Part shown: piece by piece, positions 6,393 through 23,061 of the stretch
Numbering within the stretch: position 1 is the first letter of the stretch
Layout of the letters: the number at the start of each line of letters is the position of its first letter
Origin: a virus
Direction: 5' to 3' (one strand)
Virus record (IMG/VR): IMGVR_UViG_3300048590_000028
Location: 1 to 33,038 of that record
DNA: 33,038 nucleotides
Notes under the pieces: generated by a model
Seen by the model: only the letters and a program-made list of their open reading frames with translations
Database searches by the model: none
Told to the model about the DNA's origin: nothing
Position numbers and translations under genes: made by a program

Positions 6393-8465
6393 GTGAGCTA
6401 TTTCAATAACCTGCTGCTCCTGACCCCGCAGGGGCCGGGGACAGTCACAGGCACGGGCGACATCGCGCTGGCCCCGCTCGAGGTCAGCGGCAGCGGTACG
6501 GTCACGGGGGCACCGGCTGCGGGCGGACCCGTTTCGCTGCTCGCGTTCTGGATGGGCGGTGCTGGTGCCGTCACGACGACCGAGATCACCGGCTCGGGCG
6601 CCATCACGCTCGGGGCTGTCGAAGTCGATGGCGCTGGCGTTCGCACGGCGACTGGTAGCGGCGCGATCACGTTCGGCCCCATCGAGGTCGATGGGACTGC
6701 GGAACGCTCGGTCGCGGGTTCAGGGGCGATCACCCTGGGCGCCGTCACGGTGGCGGGAACGGCCGAGCGGGTCGTCACCGGCAGCGGTGCGATTACATTC
6801 GGGCCGATCACGGTATCGGGTACGGCGGAACGGGAGGTCACCGGATCAGGTGCCCTGACCCTCGGCGCGATCACCGTAGACGGCGCGGGCTCGGTCAGCG
6901 GGGCAATCACCGGCACGGGTGAAATCACCCTCGCCGCAGTTACCGTTGACGGCTCTGGAACGATTGGCAGGACCGCATCGGGGGCGATCACCCTCGGCGC
7001 CCTGACCGTTGCAGGAACGGCAGAACGCTCGGTCACCGGGTCCGGCGCGATCACTTTCGGCCCGATCACCGTCGCGGGAACCGCCGAACGAAGCATTACC
7101 GGCTCGGGCGCACTGACGCTCGGGGCCGTCACGGTCAGCGGCTCTGGCACGGTATCAGCCCCGACGCAGGGCGGATTCGTGTCCATGTTCGCCCCGTGGC
7201 TGGGCGGTGCTGGCGCGGTTGTCGATACCTCTCACAGCGGCACCGGAGCGATCACGCTCGGGGCCATCGAGGTTGCGGGAACCGGCGAACGGTCGGTTAC
7301 CGGAACTGGATCGGTCACGCTCGGCGCGATCACCGTCGCAGGCACGGGCGAGCGCAGCGTCACCGGCACAGGGGCGATCAGCCTCGGTGCGCTCGAGGTC
7401 GACGGCAGCGGGTCGGTTAGCGGGAACGTCACCGGCACGGGTGCGGTCACCCTCGGGCCGATCACCGTATCGGGCGCTGGCTCGATCGGCCGTAGCGGAT
7501 CGGGCGCAATCACGCTCGGCGCGCTCGAGGTATCAGGCTCCGGCACGGTCGGCGGGAACGTCGCCGGCACAGGTGCACTGACCCTCGGCGCCATTGCAGT
7601 CAGCGGCACGGCCGAACGGGTCATCCCCGGAACGGGATCGATCACCCTCGGCGCTGTGACCGTCGATGGATTAGGCGAGATCTCGCATACCGGCACCGGG
7701 GCCATCACCCTCGGCCCGGTCACGGTATCTGGCACCGGAACCGCAGCCCCGCAGCAGGGCGGCGTCGTGTCCATGCTGGGCTTCTGGCTCGGCGGCATCG
7801 GTGCGGATGCCTACACGCCGGGAACGGTTACCGGATCTGGCGCGCTGACCCTCGGCGCCCTGACTGTTGCCGGAACCGGCACGGTCGGTGGCGAGATCGG
7901 CGGCGGCGGCGACATCGGTGAGGAAATCACCGGCACAGGGTCAATCACCCTTGCCGCCCTGACCGTAGCCGGCACGGCCGAGCGGTCGGTGGTCGGCAGT
8001 GGCGCAATCACCCTTGCCGCGCTCGAGCTGGCCGGCACGGGCTCGGTAGGCGACGTCATCACTGGCTCCGGGGCGCTGACGCTCGGCGCCATTGAGGTCA
8101 GCGGAACCGGCGAGCGCGCGGTTACAGGACAGGGCGCGATCAGCCTGGGGCCGATTGCGGTTGATGGTGATGGGCAGACGATCCCGCTGGTCAGCGGATC
8201 AGGGGCGATCGTACTCGGCGCTATCGAGGTCGATGGCGCAGGCACGATCGGTCGAACCGCTTCTGGGAACATCGTCCTCGGGGCGATACAGGTCGAAGGG
8301 TCGATCTTCCTGCCGGCCTCATCCCGGCGTCTGGTGACGGCAGATGGTGGCCGGATCATCAGGACAGACGGAACGCGCACTGTTCTCGGTAAGGGGTCCA
8401 GAACGGTCAAGGCCCGAGGGTCCAGGACGGTCAGGCCAAAAGGTAACCGGACGATTGACACATGA
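6393..8465 (+). CDS. Giant GSGAITLG-repeat protein (25 units)
   Basis: 690 residues from a GTG preceded by GGGGCGGA. Almost the whole protein is a tandem array of 25 degenerate units of mostly about 21 residues with consensus T-G-S/T-G-A-I-T-L-G-x-I/V-x-V-x-G-T/S-G/A-x-x-x-x. Three related hydrophobic inserts with consensus GG-x-V-S-hydrophobic-x-F/P-W-hydrophobic-GG-x-GA begin at about residues 44, 260 and 456, so the array also has a 200-residue super-period. The tail (residues about 650-690) changes to a basic 8-residue repeat built on G-x-R-T-V. The alternating beta-turn pattern predicts a beta-helix or beta-solenoid shaft, plausible for a long fibre. A single unit of the same repeat occurs in the gene at 3. 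Function beyond a structural fibre is inference. Confidence 0.75.
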   Translation: MSYFNNLLLLTPQGPGTVTGTGDIALAPLEVSGSGTVTGAPAAGGPVSLLAFWMGGAGAVTTTEITGSGAITLGAVEVDGAGVRTATGSGAITFGPIEVDGTAERSVAGSGAITLGAVTVAGTAERVVTGSGAITFGPITVSGTAEREVTGSGALTLGAITVDGAGSVSGAITGTGEITLAAVTVDGSGTIGRTASGAITLGALTVAGTAERSVTGSGAITFGPITVAGTAERSITGSGALTLGAVTVSGSGTVSAPTQGGFVSMFAPWLGGAGAVVDTSHSGTGAITLGAIEVAGTGERSVTGTGSVTLGAITVAGTGERSVTGTGAISLGALEVDGSGSVSGNVTGTGAVTLGPITVSGAGSIGRSGSGAITLGALEVSGSGTVGGNVAGTGALTLGAIAVSGTAERVIPGTGSITLGAVTVDGLGEISHTGTGAITLGPVTVSGTGTAAPQQGGVVSMLGFWLGGIGADAYTPGTVTGSGALTLGALTVAGTGTVGGEIGGGGDIGEEITGTGSITLAALTVAGTAERSVVGSGAITLAALELAGTGSVGDVITGSGALTLGAIEVSGTGERAVTGQGAISLGPIAVDGDGQTIPLVSGSGAIVLGAIEVDGAGTIGRTASGNIVLGAIQVEGSIFLPASSRRLVTADGGRIIRTDGTRTVLGKGSRTVKARGSRTVRPKGNRTIDT
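6444..8300 (+). repeat. Coding tandem repeat, 25 degenerate units of about 63 bp
   Basis: DNA counterpart of the GSGAITLG protein array. Unit starts recur every 60-70 bases, recognisable from ggCTCGGGCGCNATCACNCTCGG-like cores, and are interrupted by three inserts coding for the hydrophobic FW segments (about 6522, 7170 and 7758). Neighbouring units differ by many synonymous changes, so this is an old, diverged array rather than a recent expansion. The repeat is a possible substrate for in-frame recombination. Confidence 0.8.
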
Positions 8466-16425: not shown

Positions 16426-17116
16426 TCGCGAGTTCGCCGGCTACGGTTCCATCTTTGGGAACGTGGACATGGGCGGCGACATCGTGGCCGAGGGCGCGTT
16501 CACGAAGTCGCTGCGGCGTTACCAGAAAGAAGGTTCTCTGCCGCTGATGTTCTGGGCGCACGACCCGGCGCAGGTGCCGGGCATGTGGACCGAGATGGGC
16601 GAGGACTCGAAAGGGCTCTACGTCAAGGGAACCCTGGCCGACACGCAGCTCGGCAACGAAGTGCGGACGCTGCTCGGCATGAAGGCCGTTCGGGGCCTTT
16701 CGATCGGGTTCAGCATCTCCCCGGGCGGCGTGGAATACGACGACGACGTGCGCGTCATCAAGAACGCCGAGTTGTGGGAAGTGTCGGTGGTATCGCTGCC
16801 GATGAACCCGCGGGCCACGGTGACGCACGCAAAGACGAGATTGAGTGCCGCGGGCGAGTACGTCCCGACGGCGCAGGAATTGAGCGCGGTCAAGCGCGAG
16901 CTTGAATCGTGGTTCAGGAGCCGCGGCTTCTCAAAGGCCGCGGCGGTTGCATACGCGAGCATGGCATTCCGTGACGACGGGGCGACCCCGGAGGAACAGA
17001 CGGACGACGGCGTGATGCTGGAGGACGTGAAGGAATCCGCGCTGGCCGGACGACTGGACGAGGTGACCGACGCGATGTTGGCGAGCCTCTTGACCCGAAA
17101 ACTTAAAGCGGCCTGA
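16382..17116 (+). CDS. Prohead protease (HK97 type, peptidase family S78)
   Basis: 244 residues from ATG at 16382 inside the end of the portal gene. It matures the prohead by cleaving the capsid protein's N-terminal delta domain. Motifs: MFWAHDP with H60, GLSIGFS with S107 and LWEVSVV with E133, in the order of the known Ser-His-Glu-type herpes/HK97 protease triad region. The C-terminus (VKRELESWFRSRGFSKAAAVAYASMAF and after) adds a helical tail of the scaffold-binding type. The 12-base gap to the capsid gene contains its GGAGG site. High confidence. Confidence 0.92.
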   Translation: MEQKRIPLQIKSLNDREFAGYGSIFGNVDMGGDIVAEGAFTKSLRRYQKEGSLPLMFWAHDPAQVPGMWTEMGEDSKGLYVKGTLADTQLGNEVRTLLGMKAVRGLSIGFSISPGGVEYDDDVRVIKNAELWEVSVVSLPMNPRATVTHAKTRLSAAGEYVPTAQELSAVKRELESWFRSRGFSKAAAVAYASMAFRDDGATPEEQTDDGVMLEDVKESALAGRLDEVTDAMLASLLTRKLKAA

Positions 17117-17134
17117 CGGCCGGAGGAAATGAAG

Positions 17135-18424
17135 ATGAGCAATCAGCTCGTGGACGCCATTGAAAAGGTGGCGGGTACGTTCGAGGAGTTCAAGCGCATC
17201 AACGAAGACGCGCTGGACGCCGCCGAGAAGAAGCACGCGGCCCGTGCTGCGGAACTGGCGCAGACGCTCGACAAGATCAGCGGCGACCTGTCGGAACAGG
17301 TCAAGCAGCGCGAGATCGTCGAGAAGAAGCTGAAGCAGCAGCAGGAGCGCATCGAGATCATCGAGGCTCTGAGCGACCGTCCGCGCGGCACCGTGCAGGA
17401 CAAGGCGAAGGGCGAGTGGAACGAGGCGTTTGTCGATGCGGTCCGCAAGGGCCTCAACGACATGGAAGCCAACCATCGCAACAAGGTTGCCTACGAGAAG
17501 GCGCGCGAGGTCAAGGCCGTGAACATCACGACCGCGATCGAGGGCGGCTACGCGGTGCCCGAGGAGACCAGCCGCGCCGTCGAGGCGTTGCTGCTCCGGC
17601 AGTCGGGCGTCATGTCGAACGTCAAGATGGTGCAGGTCGGGACCAGCGACTACAAGGAACTGGTGTCGATTCACGGCACGACTTCCGGGTGGGCTGGCGA
17701 GGCCACGAGCCGTTCCGAGACGGGCGTTGCGAACCTGCGCGAGCGGGCGCCGACCTGGGGCGAGCTGTACGCCTATCCGAAGGTGTCGAACTGGGCGCTC
17801 GAGGATCTGTTCTTCGACGTGTCGAACTGGCTGGTGAACGACGCGGCCGAGGGCATGGCGAAGGCCGTGGACGCCGCGATCTACAACGGCAACGGCTCGA
17901 GCAAGCCCACCGGCATCTTCGCGGCTGCGCCGACGGCGGTTGCGGATTACAACAGCCCGCTCCGTGCGGGTGGCGTGATCCAGTACGTGCCGTGCGACGC
18001 AACGTCGCCGCAGACGGTCAACGCCGACGACATCATCGACCTCGTGTACACGCTGGCGCCGGGCTATCGCGCGAACGCAAAGTTCTACATGAACTCGGTG
18101 ACGCAGGGCTTCGTCCGCAAGCTGAAGGATTCCTACGGGCAGTACCTGTGGGCGCCTTCGCTGCAGGTCGGTCAGCCGGATCGGCTGCTCGGCTACGAGG
18201 TCGTGACGTGGGAAGACCTGGCGAACCCGACGACGGCGGACGGTTTCTCGATCGTGTTCGGTGACATGCGGCGCGCATACCTGCTCGTCTCGCGTTCCGG
18301 GCTGGCGATCGACCGCGATCCGTACACCGCGAAGGGCTACACGTCCTTCTACATGCGGAAGCGTTACGGCGGCATCGTTTTGAACAACGATTCCGTCAAG
18401 GCGCTGAAGCTGGCGGACACCTGA
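17135..18424 (+). CDS. Major capsid protein (HK97 fold)
   Basis: The frame has two close ATGs, 17129 and 17135. The GGAGG at 17122-17126 is only 2 bases from the first but 8 from the second, so I choose 17135 (429 residues). Residues about 1-115 are a charged coiled coil (EKKLKQQQERIEIIEAL), the delta/scaffold domain removed by the protease. Then NITTAIEGGYAVPEETSRAV starts the HK97-fold capsid, with VGTSDYKELVSIHGTTSGWAGE, LYAYPKVSNWALEDLFFDV and NGNGSSKPTGIF all typical. The stop is followed at once by a strong terminator, so this gene ends the packaging/head operon. High confidence. Confidence 0.94.
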   Translation: MSNQLVDAIEKVAGTFEEFKRINEDALDAAEKKHAARAAELAQTLDKISGDLSEQVKQREIVEKKLKQQQERIEIIEALSDRPRGTVQDKAKGEWNEAFVDAVRKGLNDMEANHRNKVAYEKAREVKAVNITTAIEGGYAVPEETSRAVEALLLRQSGVMSNVKMVQVGTSDYKELVSIHGTTSGWAGEATSRSETGVANLRERAPTWGELYAYPKVSNWALEDLFFDVSNWLVNDAAEGMAKAVDAAIYNGNGSSKPTGIFAAAPTAVADYNSPLRAGGVIQYVPCDATSPQTVNADDIIDLVYTLAPGYRANAKFYMNSVTQGFVRKLKDSYGQYLWAPSLQVGQPDRLLGYEVVTWEDLANPTTADGFSIVFGDMRRAYLLVSRSGLAIDRDPYTAKGYTSFYMRKRYGGIVLNNDSVKALKLADT

Positions 18425-18439
18425 TAATCAGGTAGGGAG

Positions 18440-18465
18440 GGGCGGGGCTTCGGCCCCGCCCTTTT
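18440..18465 (+). terminator. UUCG-tetraloop terminator after major capsid gene
   Basis: Perfect 9-bp GC-rich stem (18440-18448 with 18453-18461) closed by C(UUCG)G and followed by TTTT. It is placed 15 bases after the capsid stop. It would limit or end transcription between the capsid gene and the glycan cassette. Complete read-through or a separate promoter is needed for the genes downstream; I see no clear promoter in 18466-18503. Confidence 0.85.
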
Positions 18466-18503
18466 CATGAGAAAACCATTCAGTTACGCGAACAAATACC
18501 GCG

Positions 18504-19211
18504 GTGCAGCTCCAGAAAATAAAGCCGGACTGGAACTGTCCGGTCATCGTGGCGGCGACGGGGCCAAGCCTCGACGCAAACGTCGCGCTCGAGTGCCGAA
18601 AATCACGGCTGTACGGCGACTGCCGGGTGGTCGTGGTCAATGACGCATGGCGGCTGATGCCGTGGGCGGACATCCTGTACGCCTGCGATGCGGGCTGGTG
18701 GAAGGTTCACGACGGGGTGCCTGGGTTCCGGCACGGCGAACGGTGGTCCACGCACGAAGGGACCAAGCCGGACGACTCGAACTACAAGGGCGATCTGCCG
18801 AAGGAATGGCGGATCAATTACGTCCGCGGTCGTGCGGGCAACACGTTTTCGACGGACCAGTCTGTTGTCCACTACGGCATGAACAGTGGATTCCAGGCGA
18901 TCAATCTCGCGCTGCTGAAGGGCGCGACAAAGGTGATTCTGGTCGGTTTCGACATGAAGCGAACCGGCGGCAAGGCGCACTTTTTCGGGGATCACCCGAA
19001 CGGGCTCTGCGTGTCGACGCATTACGAGAATTTCATCCCTCAGTTCCGCATTGCAGCGAAAGACTGCACGGTGCCGATCGTCAACGCAACGCCCGGGAGC
19101 GCGCTGGATTGCTGGCCGCGGGTGGCGCTGGATGATGCTCTCAGGGACTGTGTGCTGCATTGCGACCGGCCCGTCGCTGACGCTCGAGCAGATCAGCCAA
19201 GCGCGGCGTAA
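18504..19211 (+). CDS. DUF115/GT42-like Rossmann-type protein, copy 1
   Basis: 235 residues; the GTG at 18504 begins MQLQKIKPDW just before the conserved core. Residues 14-23 VIVAATGPSL fit the nucleotide-sugar-binding G-x-G-P-S-L loop seen in MptE/DUF115 and GT42 sialyltransferase-like proteins. VVVVNDAWRLMPWADILYACDAGWW follows, then YGMNSGFQAINLALLKGATKVILVGFDM, AHFFGDHP and VNATPGSALDCWPRV. A tandem paralogue follows directly. The homologous part ends near residue 207; the last 27 residues (DALRDCVLHC...) have no counterpart in the paralogue and overlap its start by 80 bases. Glycan-related transfer is plausible from context; the exact activity is unknown. No strong ribosome-binding site. 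Confidence 0.7.
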   Translation: MQLQKIKPDWNCPVIVAATGPSLDANVALECRKSRLYGDCRVVVVNDAWRLMPWADILYACDAGWWKVHDGVPGFRHGERWSTHEGTKPDDSNYKGDLPKEWRINYVRGRAGNTFSTDQSVVHYGMNSGFQAINLALLKGATKVILVGFDMKRTGGKAHFFGDHPNGLCVSTHYENFIPQFRIAAKDCTVPIVNATPGSALDCWPRVALDDALRDCVLHCDRPVADARADQPSAA

Positions 19212-19764
19212 GGGATTCACCCTCGTCGGCTGCAACAATGTCTGGCAGATCGTGCCGGATCTGGCGGTGCTGTACGCCTGCAACCTGCAATGGTGGCAGC
19301 ACTACTGGTCGCTGGAACTGGCGGAACATCCTGCCGCGAAGTGGACGACGAACCGCGAGGCTGCGACCAGCTACGGGATCAACTGGATCGCGGAGCGGAA
19401 CGCGCCGGGGCTCTCGGCAGCCCCGGGCGTCGTGCATCACGGCCACGGGTCGGGGTTCACGCTGCTGAATCTGGCGTACTTGCTCGGCGCCGAGCGCATT
19501 GTGCTGCTCGGTTACGACTTGACCTACGCCAGCGACTATGACGGCAGGGCGCGTCAGGCCGGATCGACGCCGCGGCACTATTTCGGTGAATACCCGGCCG
19601 AGTTACAGCACTGGCCGAGCGTGAAGGTTCAGCAAGGCCGGCACGTCGAACTGATTGGGCTGTACGAATCTGTTGCGGCGCAGGGGCTGGTCGAGATCAT
19701 TAACGCCACGCCGGGGTCGGCGCTGGATTGCTTTCCGAGGATGAGCATTGCCGATGTTGAGTGA
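19132..19764 (+). CDS. DUF115/GT42-like Rossmann-type protein, copy 2
   Basis: 210 residues from the ATG at 19132 (a second ATG at 19135 follows); the frame extends upstream only as a shadow of copy 1. The protein repeats the plan of copy 1: CCIATGPSLTLEQ, then NNVWQIVPDLAVLYACNLQWW, then HHGHGSGFTLLNLAYLLGAE, RIVLLGYDLTY, PRHYFGEYP and INATPGSALDCFPRM near the C-terminus. Identity to copy 1 is low in loops but the shared positions run full length, so this is a diverged tandem duplication. The final 11 bases overlap the methyltransferase gene. Likely works with its neighbours on an activated sugar; substrate unknown. Confidence 0.7.
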   Translation: MMLSGTVCCIATGPSLTLEQISQARRKGFTLVGCNNVWQIVPDLAVLYACNLQWWQHYWSLELAEHPAAKWTTNREAATSYGINWIAERNAPGLSAAPGVVHHGHGSGFTLLNLAYLLGAERIVLLGYDLTYASDYDGRARQAGSTPRHYFGEYPAELQHWPSVKVQQGRHVELIGLYESVAAQGLVEIINATPGSALDCFPRMSIADVE

Positions 19765-20284
19765 CGCCGAGATGCGCGAGCGGATGCAGAACGGCTGGCG
19801 CGCCGGCCGTCCGTTCACCGACTGCGGGAACGGCAGCCTGCCGGACGCGACGGCGAATATCCGCCAGTGGCTGCCGAAGGTCTGCGCCCGCCGCGGGATC
19901 CACACGGTCTGCGATGCCGGTGCAGGCGACTTGGCATGGCGCCGCGGTATGGCGTGGGACGTGGAGTATCTGCCGTTCGATCTGTTCCCGCGGCACCCGT
20001 CCGTGGCGCAGATCGACATCACGCAAGACGTGCTGCCGAAGTGCGACGCGATCCTGTGTCGGATGGTGCTGAATCACCTGGACGACGAACGGGTGACGCT
20101 CGCGCTCGGCCGCTTTCGGCTGTCGTCGCGCTACCTGTTCGCGACGCAGTTCAACGGCGAGGACTTGCCGCAGCGTTCCACGCAGTTCATGCGGCTGGAC
20201 CTGCGCAAGTGGCTCGGCGAGCCGATTGAATGGGTGCATGACGGTCGCGAGGACGCTTGTTCGCTGGCGCTATGGGAAATCTGA
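19754..20284 (+). CDS. Class I SAM-dependent methyltransferase-like protein
   Basis: 176 residues from ATG at 19754 (a TTG at 19748 is also in frame but weaker). Residues 52-60 (VCDAGAGDL) match the SAM-binding motif I D-x-G-x-G. EYLPFDLFP follows as the acidic-loop region, and DITQDVLPKCDAILCRMVLNHLDD (88-111) gives motifs II to III with the 'N-H-L' typical of such enzymes. The rest is a short class I fold. In this cassette it could methylate a sugar, as in O-methylated glycans, or a small molecule; the sequence does not show the substrate. Overlaps both neighbours, consistent with a single operon. Confidence 0.72.
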   Translation: MLSDAEMRERMQNGWRAGRPFTDCGNGSLPDATANIRQWLPKVCARRGIHTVCDAGAGDLAWRRGMAWDVEYLPFDLFPRHPSVAQIDITQDVLPKCDAILCRMVLNHLDDERVTLALGRFRLSSRYLFATQFNGEDLPQRSTQFMRLDLRKWLGEPIEWVHDGREDACSLALWEI

Positions 20285-20865
20285 CCGTCGTCGTATTGAA
20301 CTGGCGGAACTACCTCGGCCGCGGCCGGGAGTACGTTGACAAGCTGCACGCCGGGGTTCGGCAGCATCTTTCGGTGCCGTTCCGGTTCTGGGAAGTGACG
20401 GAGCATGATCTGCCGGCAGGCCGGGAGGGCTGGTTCAACAAGCTCTCGCTGCTCGAGATGTTTGACGGCGACGTCCTATATCTCGACCTGGACGTGATTC
20501 TGACCGGCAGCATCGACCATCTGGTGACGCTGGCGCTGTCGGATCCGTCGCGCATATGGGCGCGGGACGACTGGTCGTATCCGGTGACGAAACCACGGCC
20601 CGGGCTTGAAGCGACGATCAACAGCTCGGTGATGTTCTGGCATGGCCGCAAGGACATGACCGGGGCAGAAGCATTGATTCCAGTGACGCACGGCGATCAA
20701 GGGATCATCACGCAGTTGTTCTGGCCGCATGGTATTGGCCTGCTGCCGAACGATTCCGTGACGTCCTACAAATATGACGTGCTGCGTGGCGCGAAACCCG
20801 GGCCGGTCGTGGTGTTCCACGGTCACCCGAAACCACACGAGGCGGGCTGGGATTGCTTGCAGTAA
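20272..20865 (+). CDS. GT-A-type glycosyltransferase with DxD motif
   Basis: 197 residues from ATG at 20272 (TTG at 20257 is possible but less likely); 13-base overlap with the previous gene. The N-terminus VVVLNWRNYLGRGREYVDKLHAGV is a sugar-nucleotide-binding start, then WFNKLSLLEMF, and DGDVLYLDLDVILTGS holds the metal-binding D72-x-D74. NSSVMFWHG, HGDQGIITQLF and VVVFHGHPKPHE complete a plan close to GT8/LPS-type glycosyltransferases, with the histidine pair near the C-terminus matching typical H-x-x-x-K/P endings. The predicted reaction is transfer of a sugar from a nucleotide donor; acceptor unknown. Confidence 0.8.
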   Translation: MGNLTVVVLNWRNYLGRGREYVDKLHAGVRQHLSVPFRFWEVTEHDLPAGREGWFNKLSLLEMFDGDVLYLDLDVILTGSIDHLVTLALSDPSRIWARDDWSYPVTKPRPGLEATINSSVMFWHGRKDMTGAEALIPVTHGDQGIITQLFWPHGIGLLPNDSVTSYKYDVLRGAKPGPVVVFHGHPKPHEAGWDCLQ

Positions 20866-21587
20866 TCCACGCCGCGCCGCAGATCGACTGGCACCGGCAG
20901 CGGGCGCCGCAGATCGCCGCAGGGCTCAAGGCGATCGGGGTCCGCTGCGAGATCGTGAGCGACGCGAATCGCCGCGAAGGGCTGCCGATCCTGCTCGGCA
21001 CGACCCGCTGGCGGGCGCTCGAGCAGGGCGACTACCTGCTGGTGGACCGGGCGTCGTTCGGCGATCCGCACTTCGTCCAACTGGTCCGCAACGGCCACGG
21101 CCGGCGCGGCGACCATCGCGTACCGCAGGGATCGCCAGCCGAGCGCTGGGAATGGATCGAGGATCGCGCCGCTGTCCGGCTCGCCCCGTGGGGCTGCGGG
21201 AAACGGCGCGTGCTGTGCGGACAGACCGAGACGTACTCGCCAGCGTGGCCGTCACTTGCGCTGTGGTATGCGGCTGTGGGGCTTTACCCGAGCCATTTTC
21301 GCAAGCACCCCGCGGGCGAGAACCCGACCGGGCTGCCTGAGACGCGGAAATGGACCGACTGCGGACTCGCCATCACGCTGAACTCGAGCGTCGGGGTGGA
21401 TGCCGTCTTGAACGGCGTGCCGACCGTGACGATGGACGAAGGCGCGATGGCATGGGACGTGTCGAGCCACGTTCCACATGAAACATTGAAACCCGCCCGT
21501 CTGCCGTGGCTGCACTGGCTTGCCTGGACGCAGTGGACGTGGGATGAAATTGCAAAGGGGCACCCGTGGCAGCACTTACTCTCGTAA
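20853..21587 (+). CDS. GT-B/capsule-synthesis-like protein
   Basis: 244 residues; TTG start at 20853, 13 bases inside the previous gene. The N-terminus VIHAAPQIDWHRQRAPQIAAGLKAIGVRCEIV resembles the N-terminal Rossmann half of GT-B or capsule-synthesis enzymes. A later stretch WTDCGLAITLNSSVGVDAVLNGVPTVTMDEGAMAWDV is the conserved nucleotide-binding segment of such proteins, where 'N-S-S-V-G-x-x-A-x-x-x-G-x-P' recalls the sugar-nucleotide site of glycosyl or capsule polysaccharide transferases. The weak start means the exact N-terminus is uncertain. Overlaps the connector gene by 22 bases, so it is part of the same transcript. Confidence 0.6.
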   Translation: MLAVIHAAPQIDWHRQRAPQIAAGLKAIGVRCEIVSDANRREGLPILLGTTRWRALEQGDYLLVDRASFGDPHFVQLVRNGHGRRGDHRVPQGSPAERWEWIEDRAAVRLAPWGCGKRRVLCGQTETYSPAWPSLALWYAAVGLYPSHFRKHPAGENPTGLPETRKWTDCGLAITLNSSVGVDAVLNGVPTVTMDEGAMAWDVSSHVPHETLKPARLPWLHWLAWTQWTWDEIAKGHPWQHLLS

Positions 21588-22117
21588 CCGGACCGACCGC
21601 GGAACCGATCACGCTTGCGGAGGCGCGGGCGCAGTGTCGTATCGACCACGCAATTGACGATGCCGTTCTCGCCGGTCTGATCCTCGACGCCCGCGAATGG
21701 GCGCAGGGCTACACGCGACGTAACTTCATCGCACAGACCTGGGACTACTTTCTACACGGCTTTCCGATGGTCATTGAGCTGCCGATCGGGCCGGTGAGTT
21801 CAATTACGTCGATCAGCTACTACGACATTAGCAACGCGCTAAAGACTTTCGCGAACTACGATGCCGACCTGAAGGGGATGGTGCCGCAGATCTGTCCCGC
21901 CGATGGCTACGAGTGGCCGTACACATACAGCCGCTATAACGCGGTCACGGTGCGGTTCGTGACGGGGTATCCGGTGAACCATTCCGACCTGTTCACGATC
22001 CGGGCGGCGATGCTGCTGCACGTCGAGGCGCATTACGACCGCGAGGCCAGCAACTACCAGAACCTGTTGTCGGCAGCCGAGCACAAGCTCGACGCGCTGC
22101 GGGTGGTGAACTTCTGA
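21566..22117 (+). CDS. Head-tail connector protein (gp6/QLRG type)
   Basis: 183 residues from GTG at 21566. The N-terminus GPTAEPITLAEARAQCRID, then ILDAREWAQGYTRRNFIAQTWDYFLHGFP, is the typical start of gp6-like connector (adaptor) proteins that sit under the portal ring. PIGPVSSITSISYYD and VTVRFVTGYP follow, and the C-terminal helix (IRAAMLLHVEAHYDREASNYQNLLSAAEHKLDALRVVNF) is also typical. Encoded at the first usual connector position after the capsid, but separated from it by the five-gene cassette. Ends in TGATG with the next gene. High confidence. Confidence 0.88.
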   Translation: MAALTLVTGPTAEPITLAEARAQCRIDHAIDDAVLAGLILDAREWAQGYTRRNFIAQTWDYFLHGFPMVIELPIGPVSSITSISYYDISNALKTFANYDADLKGMVPQICPADGYEWPYTYSRYNAVTVRFVTGYPVNHSDLFTIRAAMLLHVEAHYDREASNYQNLLSAAEHKLDALRVVNF

Positions 22118-23061
22118 TGCCCAGCCTGCGCGCACAGTCACTGAAGGATATATTCACGTTCACGCGGTCCACGACGGCGACGTACTGGAATTCGTCAGGG
22201 GTTCTGACGACCGCAGCGGTTGACGAGCCGCGCATCGACTATGACCCGGCGACGCTTGCGGTCCGCGGCCTGCTGATCGAGGAAGAACGCACGAACCTAA
22301 TCCTGAACAGCACCACGTTCGCCACTCAGAACGTAACGGTGACGAACGTCGCGCACACGCTGAGTTTCTACGGCACAGGGACGATCACGCTTTCTGGTAC
22401 TTCGACGGCCGGTCCGCTGGTCGGCACCGGAGCGAATACCCGCGTTTCGCTGGTATTCACCCCGACCGCCGGGACGCTGACGCTGACCCTGTCCGGCAGC
22501 GCCACGATGGCGCAGCTCGAGGTCGGGGCGCACGCGACAAGCTGGATCCAGACCGCATCGGAGACTGTGACGCGAGCCGCGGATGTCTGCTACACGAACA
22601 CGCTGACCCCGTGGTTCAACGAGACAGAGGGCACGATTTACACCGAGTTCAGCATCCCTTCTGCATTTTCCGCAAGCGGCGCCGATCGGTACATCGCGCA
22701 ATTTGACGACGGCACCTATGACAATCGGCACGCTTTGCTTTTGAACGACTCCGGGTCCCCGCTTGGATCGGTGAGCGGGTTTACTGCAGCGGGCGGTGTG
22801 ACGCAGGCTTATCTCGGCACCAAAGCACCGTCTGCCGGTGTGGCTTATAAGATCGCCTATGGATGGGAAGCCGACAACGTCACGGTAGTTGCGTCGGGAT
22901 CGGCCGCTGTCACGGATACTTCGGCGACCATGCCGAGCGGACTATCTACGATGCGGATTGGCAATCTGCTGTCCTCATATGCGATGAACGGGCACATCCG
23001 CAAGGTCAAGTTCTACCCGCGCAGGCTGTCCAACACCGAACTCGCGGCACTGGTGGCGTGA
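22117..23061 (+). CDS. Lectin-like virion protein inserted between connector genes
   Basis: 314 residues; TGATG overlap with the connector gene. The start (FTFTRSTTATYWNSSGVLTT, then EPRIDYDPATLAVRGLLIEEERTNLILNS) is a known signature of phage and prophage surface/fibre proteins, with the 'G-L-L-I-E-x-x-R-T-N-L' part highly conserved. Beta-sandwich segments follow: YGTGTITLSGT, LVFTPTAGTLTLTLSG, then a LamG-like C-terminal half (FSASGADRYIAQFDDG, GWEADNVTVVASGSAAVTDT, GHIRKVKFYPRRLSNTEL). Such proteins usually bind glycans. Its location between head-tail connector and head-closure genes is unusual and suggests a head or neck fibre. Confidence 0.72.
   Translation: MPSLRAQSLKDIFTFTRSTTATYWNSSGVLTTAAVDEPRIDYDPATLAVRGLLIEEERTNLILNSTTFATQNVTVTNVAHTLSFYGTGTITLSGTSTAGPLVGTGANTRVSLVFTPTAGTLTLTLSGSATMAQLEVGAHATSWIQTASETVTRAADVCYTNTLTPWFNETEGTIYTEFSIPSAFSASGADRYIAQFDDGTYDNRHALLLNDSGSPLGSVSGFTAAGGVTQAYLGTKAPSAGVAYKIAYGWEADNVTVVASGSAAVTDTSATMPSGLSTMRIGNLLSSYAMNGHIRKVKFYPRRLSNTELAALVA

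Follow-up and report, generated by a model that had tools for sequence, protein, structure and literature searches.

A predicted glycan-type gene cassette between the capsid and connector genes of uncultivated phages

Introduction

This study concerns a set of five genes (g1 to g5) that an uncultivated virus, IMG/VR record IMGVR_UViG_3300048590_000028, carries between its major capsid and head-tail connector genes. The window is the whole stretch of DNA analysed, 33,038 nucleotides long (positions 1 to 33,038 of the record). An earlier note, made from the sequence without database searches, had described the five genes as a glycan-type cassette.

Several described phage systems resemble this locus in part. 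In mycobacteriophages (Che8 and its relatives), phage-encoded glycosyltransferases are thought to decorate the capsid and tail, as cited in two reports (PMC12619734, PMC11256854). This is the likeness to the window; the difference is that the mycobacteriophage genes lie elsewhere in the genome, near the 3' end in Maravista. In phage P1, the pmgO-pmgQ region carries a phrog_4603 gene, the family of g1 and g2, and a glycosyltransferase gene two genes downstream, but it does not adjoin capsid or connector genes. PmgO is non-essential (PMC10695390), which agrees with the expectation for a decorating enzyme.

D3/PMG1-type Pseudomonas phages share with the window a capsid gene, a hairpin (annotated as a terminator in PMG1 by its annotators), a small open reading frame (ORF), a phrog_4603 gene of the g1 family at about 31% identity, and a head-tail adaptor gene. 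Their slot holds one gene rather than five, without g4 and g5, and hypothetical and methyltransferase genes additionally follow the head-closure gene. Tetraselmis viridis virus S20 and Pseudomonas phage Psp6 have sialyltransferase-like and methyltransferase genes after the capsid gene, joined in S20 by glycosyltransferase genes, but in another composition and order and with no g5. We know of no experimental studies of the S20 or Psp6 genes, and a literature search for phage sialyltransferase genes adjoining capsid genes found nothing.

Among characterized enzymes, Maf glycosyltransferases modify Ser/Thr of flagellin with nonulosonic acids, and one Maf can also use N-acetylneuraminic acid (Neu5Ac) and 3-deoxy-D-manno-oct-2-ulosonic acid (Kdo); the Maf PF01973 domain resembles Cst-II (PMC11339370). 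The (K/R)xHP motif is common to sialyltransferases and retaining Kdo transferases, and in KrkA this motif and a Ser-Ser-hydrophobic site bind cytidine monophosphate (CMP) (PMC12887879).

Results

The capsid-connector interval of the window (18504-21587) consists of five overlapping ORFs on the plus strand (Table 1), and the connector start (21566) itself overlaps the end of g5 (21587). Terminase, portal, protease and capsid genes lie upstream of the cassette, and connector, tail and tape-measure genes downstream. Relatives were gathered from viral contigs with g1, g4 and g5 as seeds. The slot is largely complete in ten loci (the window, L077, L029, L078, L084, L086, L087, L088, L094 and L098), besides which there are many partial ones. 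The order capsid-g1-g2-g3-g4-g5 is full in nine of the ten, L087 being without g3, and the connector is visible in nine, as L029 stops within g5. Furthermore, in two phages with different head genes (L096 and L097), the g1-g5 set occurs with an extra methyltransferase downstream of the connector.

Because gene set, order and place recur in no fewer than nine further phages, all uncultivated, the cassette is a real and maintained module. This bears out the earlier note, which had placed five overlapping glycan-type genes between capsid and connector and thought their set and place unlike a random moron: ORFs and family matches agree, the order is kept in ten divergent loci, inserts are mostly sugar-related, and the genes did not prove to be unrelated in other genomes.

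Cassette genes are 85-99% identical to those of the window in L077 and 35-80% identical in the other loci, the order being conserved at identities as low as 35-70%. The L077 connector is only 66% identical to that of the window, so a recombination border probably lies near the end of g5.

Table 1. Features of the capsid-connector region in the window
Feature	Position	Strand	Basis
Major capsid protein, HK97 fold family; upstream slot border	17129-18424	+	Phage_capsid E 1.7e-63; phrog_10
Hairpin core, UUCG loop, after capsid stop codon	18440-18461	+	read from sequence
Small basic ORF with (A/Y)xNK-x4-APENK motif; overlaps g1 start in another frame	18467-18643	+	conserved in cassette phages
g1, DUF115/Maf-like transferase, first paralogue	18504-19211	+	phrog_4603 E 5e-40; PF01973 E 5e-6
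g2, DUF115/Maf-like transferase, second paralogue	~19132-19764 (start inferred)	+	phrog_4603 E 3e-28; PF01973 E 2.5e-4
g3, class I S-adenosylmethionine (SAM) methyltransferase	19748-20284	+	phrog_3382 E 1.5e-15
g4, GT8-like glycosyltransferase	~20272-20865 (start inferred)	+	phrog_1962 E 4e-10; PF01501 E 0.0066, under cut-off
g5, Kps/WbbB-like protein; RKHP and NSSV motifs, QXXXD nucleophile Asp replaced	20853-21587	+	motif survey
Head-tail connector, gp6-like; downstream slot border	21566-22117	+	Phage_connect_1 PF05135 E 1.7e-6; phrog_442 head-tail adaptor E 5e-22

Profile searches and structure prediction gave family-level identities for g1 to g4, while g5 was placed by motifs and weak fold matches. 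Both g1 and g2 belong to phrog_4603, a family named 'alpha-2,3-sialyltransferase', and match PF01973 (MptE-like/DUF115) with scores under the Pfam gathering cut-off; g2 aligns with the g2 orthologues of other phages. The AlphaFold2 model of g1 (predicted local distance difference test, pLDDT, 88) has as its best PDB match in Foldseek the Maf glycosyltransferase 5mu5 (E 3e-6, TMq 0.59), with which it also shares its Pfam family. Compared with Maf, g1 has only core-domain size and is without the N- and C-terminal domains. The second-best fold match is MptE 8sd5, a pyrophosphokinase, and the g1 sequence profile had no match among solved structures. The two DUF115/GT42-like paralogues recognised earlier are thus upheld by phrog_4603, PF01973 and the Maf/Cst-II-like fold of g1.

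The methyltransferase and the DxD glycosyltransferase of the earlier description are likewise supported. In g3, the glycine-rich motif I reads DAGAGD and is invariant in 16 sequences; the protein is Methyltransf_23-like and not of the DNA methyltransferase type. In g4, a DLD motif is kept in every relative long enough to show it, and HGxPK is conserved too.

No match to g5 was found in Pfam, PHROGs or NCBIfam, and the NCBIfam search of all five cassette proteins gave nothing. A survey of 41 g5-type sequences found (K/R)xHP in 39, the window having RKHP, and an SS(V/I) motif positioned where the CMP phosphate site is. The weak fold matches to KrkA, WbbB and KpsC (E 0.008-0.03) agree with these motifs, and there is a weak profile match to WbbB (E 0.4); the proposed capsule (Kps)-like character of the fifth protein is supported. 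With KpsC, WbbB and KrkA (GT99/107/140), g5 shares (K/R)xHP, the Ser-Ser CMP-phosphate site and the Gln of QXXXD. It differs in that the cassette clade reads Q-x-x-x-(Y/W/F), without the nucleophile Asp, and in that support for the modified GT-B fold is weak. These motifs suggest that g5 probably binds a CMP-sugar; since the Asp has been lost in the cassette clade, however, classing it with the retaining Kdo transferases would be wrong. QXXXD is kept in distant g5 relatives (e.g. L004, L101, L105 and L108), and the distant phage relatives L004 and L099-L108 keep QXXXD together with RxHP. A wide phage family of Kdo-transferase-like proteins, hardly covered by Pfam or PHROGs, thus exists.

Cellular g5 relatives at 51-55% identity occur on four Planctomycetia metagenome-assembled genome (MAG) contigs (L072-L075), in non-phage loci and once fused to GT4. 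Planctomycetota were considered as the host and set aside: those four loci are not phage loci, and searching 294 genomes of the phylum for the capsid gave two matches. Of the regions retrieved around them, one contained a portal-like gene and the other a capsid fragment, with no cassette gene recognised. A tRNA search found none.

Genes inserted in the slot further characterize the module. Seven loci have an additional class I methyltransferase, four a 2-oxoglutarate (2OG)-Fe(II) oxygenase (2OG-FeII_Oxy_3-like) and two an enzyme of the Methyltransf_24 type. L029 carries a TylF-like enzyme, L087 a nucleotide-sugar epimerase (PF01370, E 1e-38) with a second GT8, and a beta-rich protein of no assigned family occurs in two loci. 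More distant g5 loci also carry an aminotransferase and a weakly supported sulfotransferase. All inserts except the beta-rich protein fit sugar or glycan decoration.

The slot is empty in L119, L116 and L117, whose capsids are ∼40-43% identical to that of the window, as near as those of some cassette carriers, and g1 stands alone upstream of the connector in L115 and L154. Because empty, g1-only and full versions exist, together with the genes after the capsid in PMG1, S20 and Psp6, the slot is a modular, recurrent cargo site. It seems to have grown stepwise, first empty, then with a single gene and finally with at least five. The one-gene versions would also suit a different explanation, in which unrelated accessory genes share the slot by position only and form no joint pathway. 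Within-cassette distances correlate unevenly (g1-g2 -0.19; g3-g4 0.73), so that not all genes co-vary, and the missing g3 of L087 points the same way. Against this stand the order of g1 to g5 in nine of the ten loci and the recurrence of the set beside different heads in L096 and L097, and we regard the positional explanation as improbable.

Capsid and g1 co-vary, with a rank correlation of 0.78 in ten loci and a Mantel r of 0.35 (p 0.002) in nine. This was set aside as proof of the acceptor, being modest in the Mantel test, in which the major capsid protein co-varies more with g5 (0.57).

Strong hairpins occur downstream of the capsid stop codon in all 13 loci checked. The window hairpin is followed by merely UUUU; in L084, L088, L094 and L098 the hairpin is located within the small ORF and has no clear U-tract, and a terminator scan of the window did not report the hairpin at 18440-18461 among its terminators. 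Of the earlier claim that a UUCG terminator ends the capsid gene, the hairpin is thus real and conserved while the terminator role is not established; it is possibly a partial terminator or an RNA-stabilising element. A search for sigma-70-like promoters in 17000-22500 found none, so read-through is probably needed to express both the cassette and the connector, and the gene overlaps tie expression of the cassette to that of the connector.

The small ORF at 18467-18643 was absent from the earlier account. A DNA pattern for its two ENK/PENK motifs, run on viral stretches, gave 79 IMG/VR matches, most of them preceded by a capsid match. Going by the first gene recognised in the following 150 bases, 12 of these have a cassette-type gene, 27 have the connector, and in 40 neither type is recognised; in the 27 a small PENK protein gene intervenes, contrary to the earlier premise that the connector normally follows the capsid gene at once. 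Small proteins that carry tandem (P)ENK-x4-(x)PENK, in most cases close to the C-terminus, are encoded, mostly in the interval from capsid to connector, by very diverse phages (the window, L113-L191), and the PHROGs matching them are mostly of unknown function. Because the spacing is constant, the motif suggests a short binding element for head assembly.

Discussion

On balance, we think that the modular cassette equips virion proteins, ahead of assembly, with a short and unusual methylated glycan; its acidic sugar is probably of the ulosonic type and taken from the host in CMP-activated form. Its function at pathway level is likely. The cassette would occupy a cargo slot flanked by the connector and the small gene downstream of the capsid, and its genes would be co-expressed with the head genes late in infection, the enzymes acting in the cytosol. 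Through their Maf/Cst-II-type fold, g1 and g2 would attach an acidic sugar of nonulosonic or Kdo-like type, supplied by the host and probably CMP-activated, to Ser/Thr residues of virion proteins. With a nucleotide-sugar donor, g4 would add one more sugar; g5 would contribute another CMP-type sugar, and g3 would methylate the glycan. The decorated virion may then differ in adsorption, stability or recognition. We infer the donor type from motifs and fold, the virion acceptor from operon position and the lack of predicted membrane proteins, and, beyond these, the order of steps and the benefit to the phage.

The acceptor is where the host surface competes. A hydropathy scan that covered the five proteins and the inserted genes of all ten loci found no membrane-type hydrophobic stretch, the top 19-residue mean among the five being 1.44. 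The membrane flippase and lipid-linked transferase of the gtr serotype-conversion cassette are therefore not matched here. If the cassette instead acted on the O-antigen or capsule of the host, in infection or in the lysogenic state, and so blocked superinfection or altered receptors, it would be in keeping with KpsC/WbbB-like enzymes, which work on capsule and lipopolysaccharide, with the closest cellular g5 relatives, which lie beside other transferases in Planctomycetia, and with the integrase genes of several cassette-gene phages. Such a role would leave unexplained why neither cassette nor inserts encode a predicted membrane protein, a flippase or a lipid-linked transferase, and why the genes are embedded in a late head operon whose slot has no promoter-like site. 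As late cytosolic action on virion proteins fits these two features best, virion proteins are favoured, and we hold host-surface modification to be a fair but less likely rival.

The nature of the enzymes bears on another alternative, hypermodification of phage DNA (glycosylated bases) against restriction. Phage glycosyltransferases often target DNA, as cited in one report (PMC12619734), and the oxygenase and methyltransferase inserts could suit a base-modification pathway. The oxygenase and g3 families named above and the resemblance of the transferases to protein and polysaccharide enzymes argue otherwise, and a thymidylate-synthase-type gene is present in just one of 11 records; we regard this explanation as very improbable. 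A Tet_JBP search had no match anywhere, and since its controls were equally silent it is uninformative.

Several points weigh against glycosylation of the virion as proposed. Glycan chemistry and acceptor are predictions from the genes. The DUF115/MptE fold includes the pyrophosphokinase 8sd5, so glycosyl transfer by g1 and g2 is not proved by fold. In addition, cassette-clade g5 has no nucleophile Asp and its fold model is poor (pLDDT 64). A search for CMP-sugar synthetases in 11 virus records, fragments included, found none, so the donor would be host-supplied. Finally, co-variation within the cassette is uneven, and the integrase genes make expression in lysogens conceivable. A more specific version, in which these uncultivated phages use three transferases for CMP-activated ulosonic-type sugars (g1, g2 and g5) to O-glycosylate their capsid or tail, the product being a methylated glycan, with g5 as an Asp-less Kdo-transferase relative that works by another mechanism, is put forward only tentatively.

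Candidate acceptors may be sought near the connector and at the start of the window. The protein encoded at 22117-23061, the connector's neighbour, has a weak match to NF048003, a head spike fibre domain of phages and gene transfer agents (22 bits against a cut-off of 36), and a relative in L078. Ser/Thr-rich proteins (20-24% Ser+Thr) are encoded at 1-12 kb. The head-spike-like protein and these Ser/Thr-rich proteins are possible acceptors. A 690-residue Gly/Ser/Thr-rich repeat protein with units like GSGAITLGAITVAGTGERSVT (6393-8465) is a possible fibre and possible glycan acceptor. Collagen-like GxY repeat proteins are encoded between portal and connector in L096 (4645-5634) and L097 (2525-3496).

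The cassette points to CMP-sugar chemistry, which to our knowledge has not been described on phage particles. A conserved glycan cassette at a fixed slot would make virion glycosylation predictable from gene order, and this prediction is testable in accessible relatives, as D3-like Pseudomonas phages have a one-gene version in the same slot.

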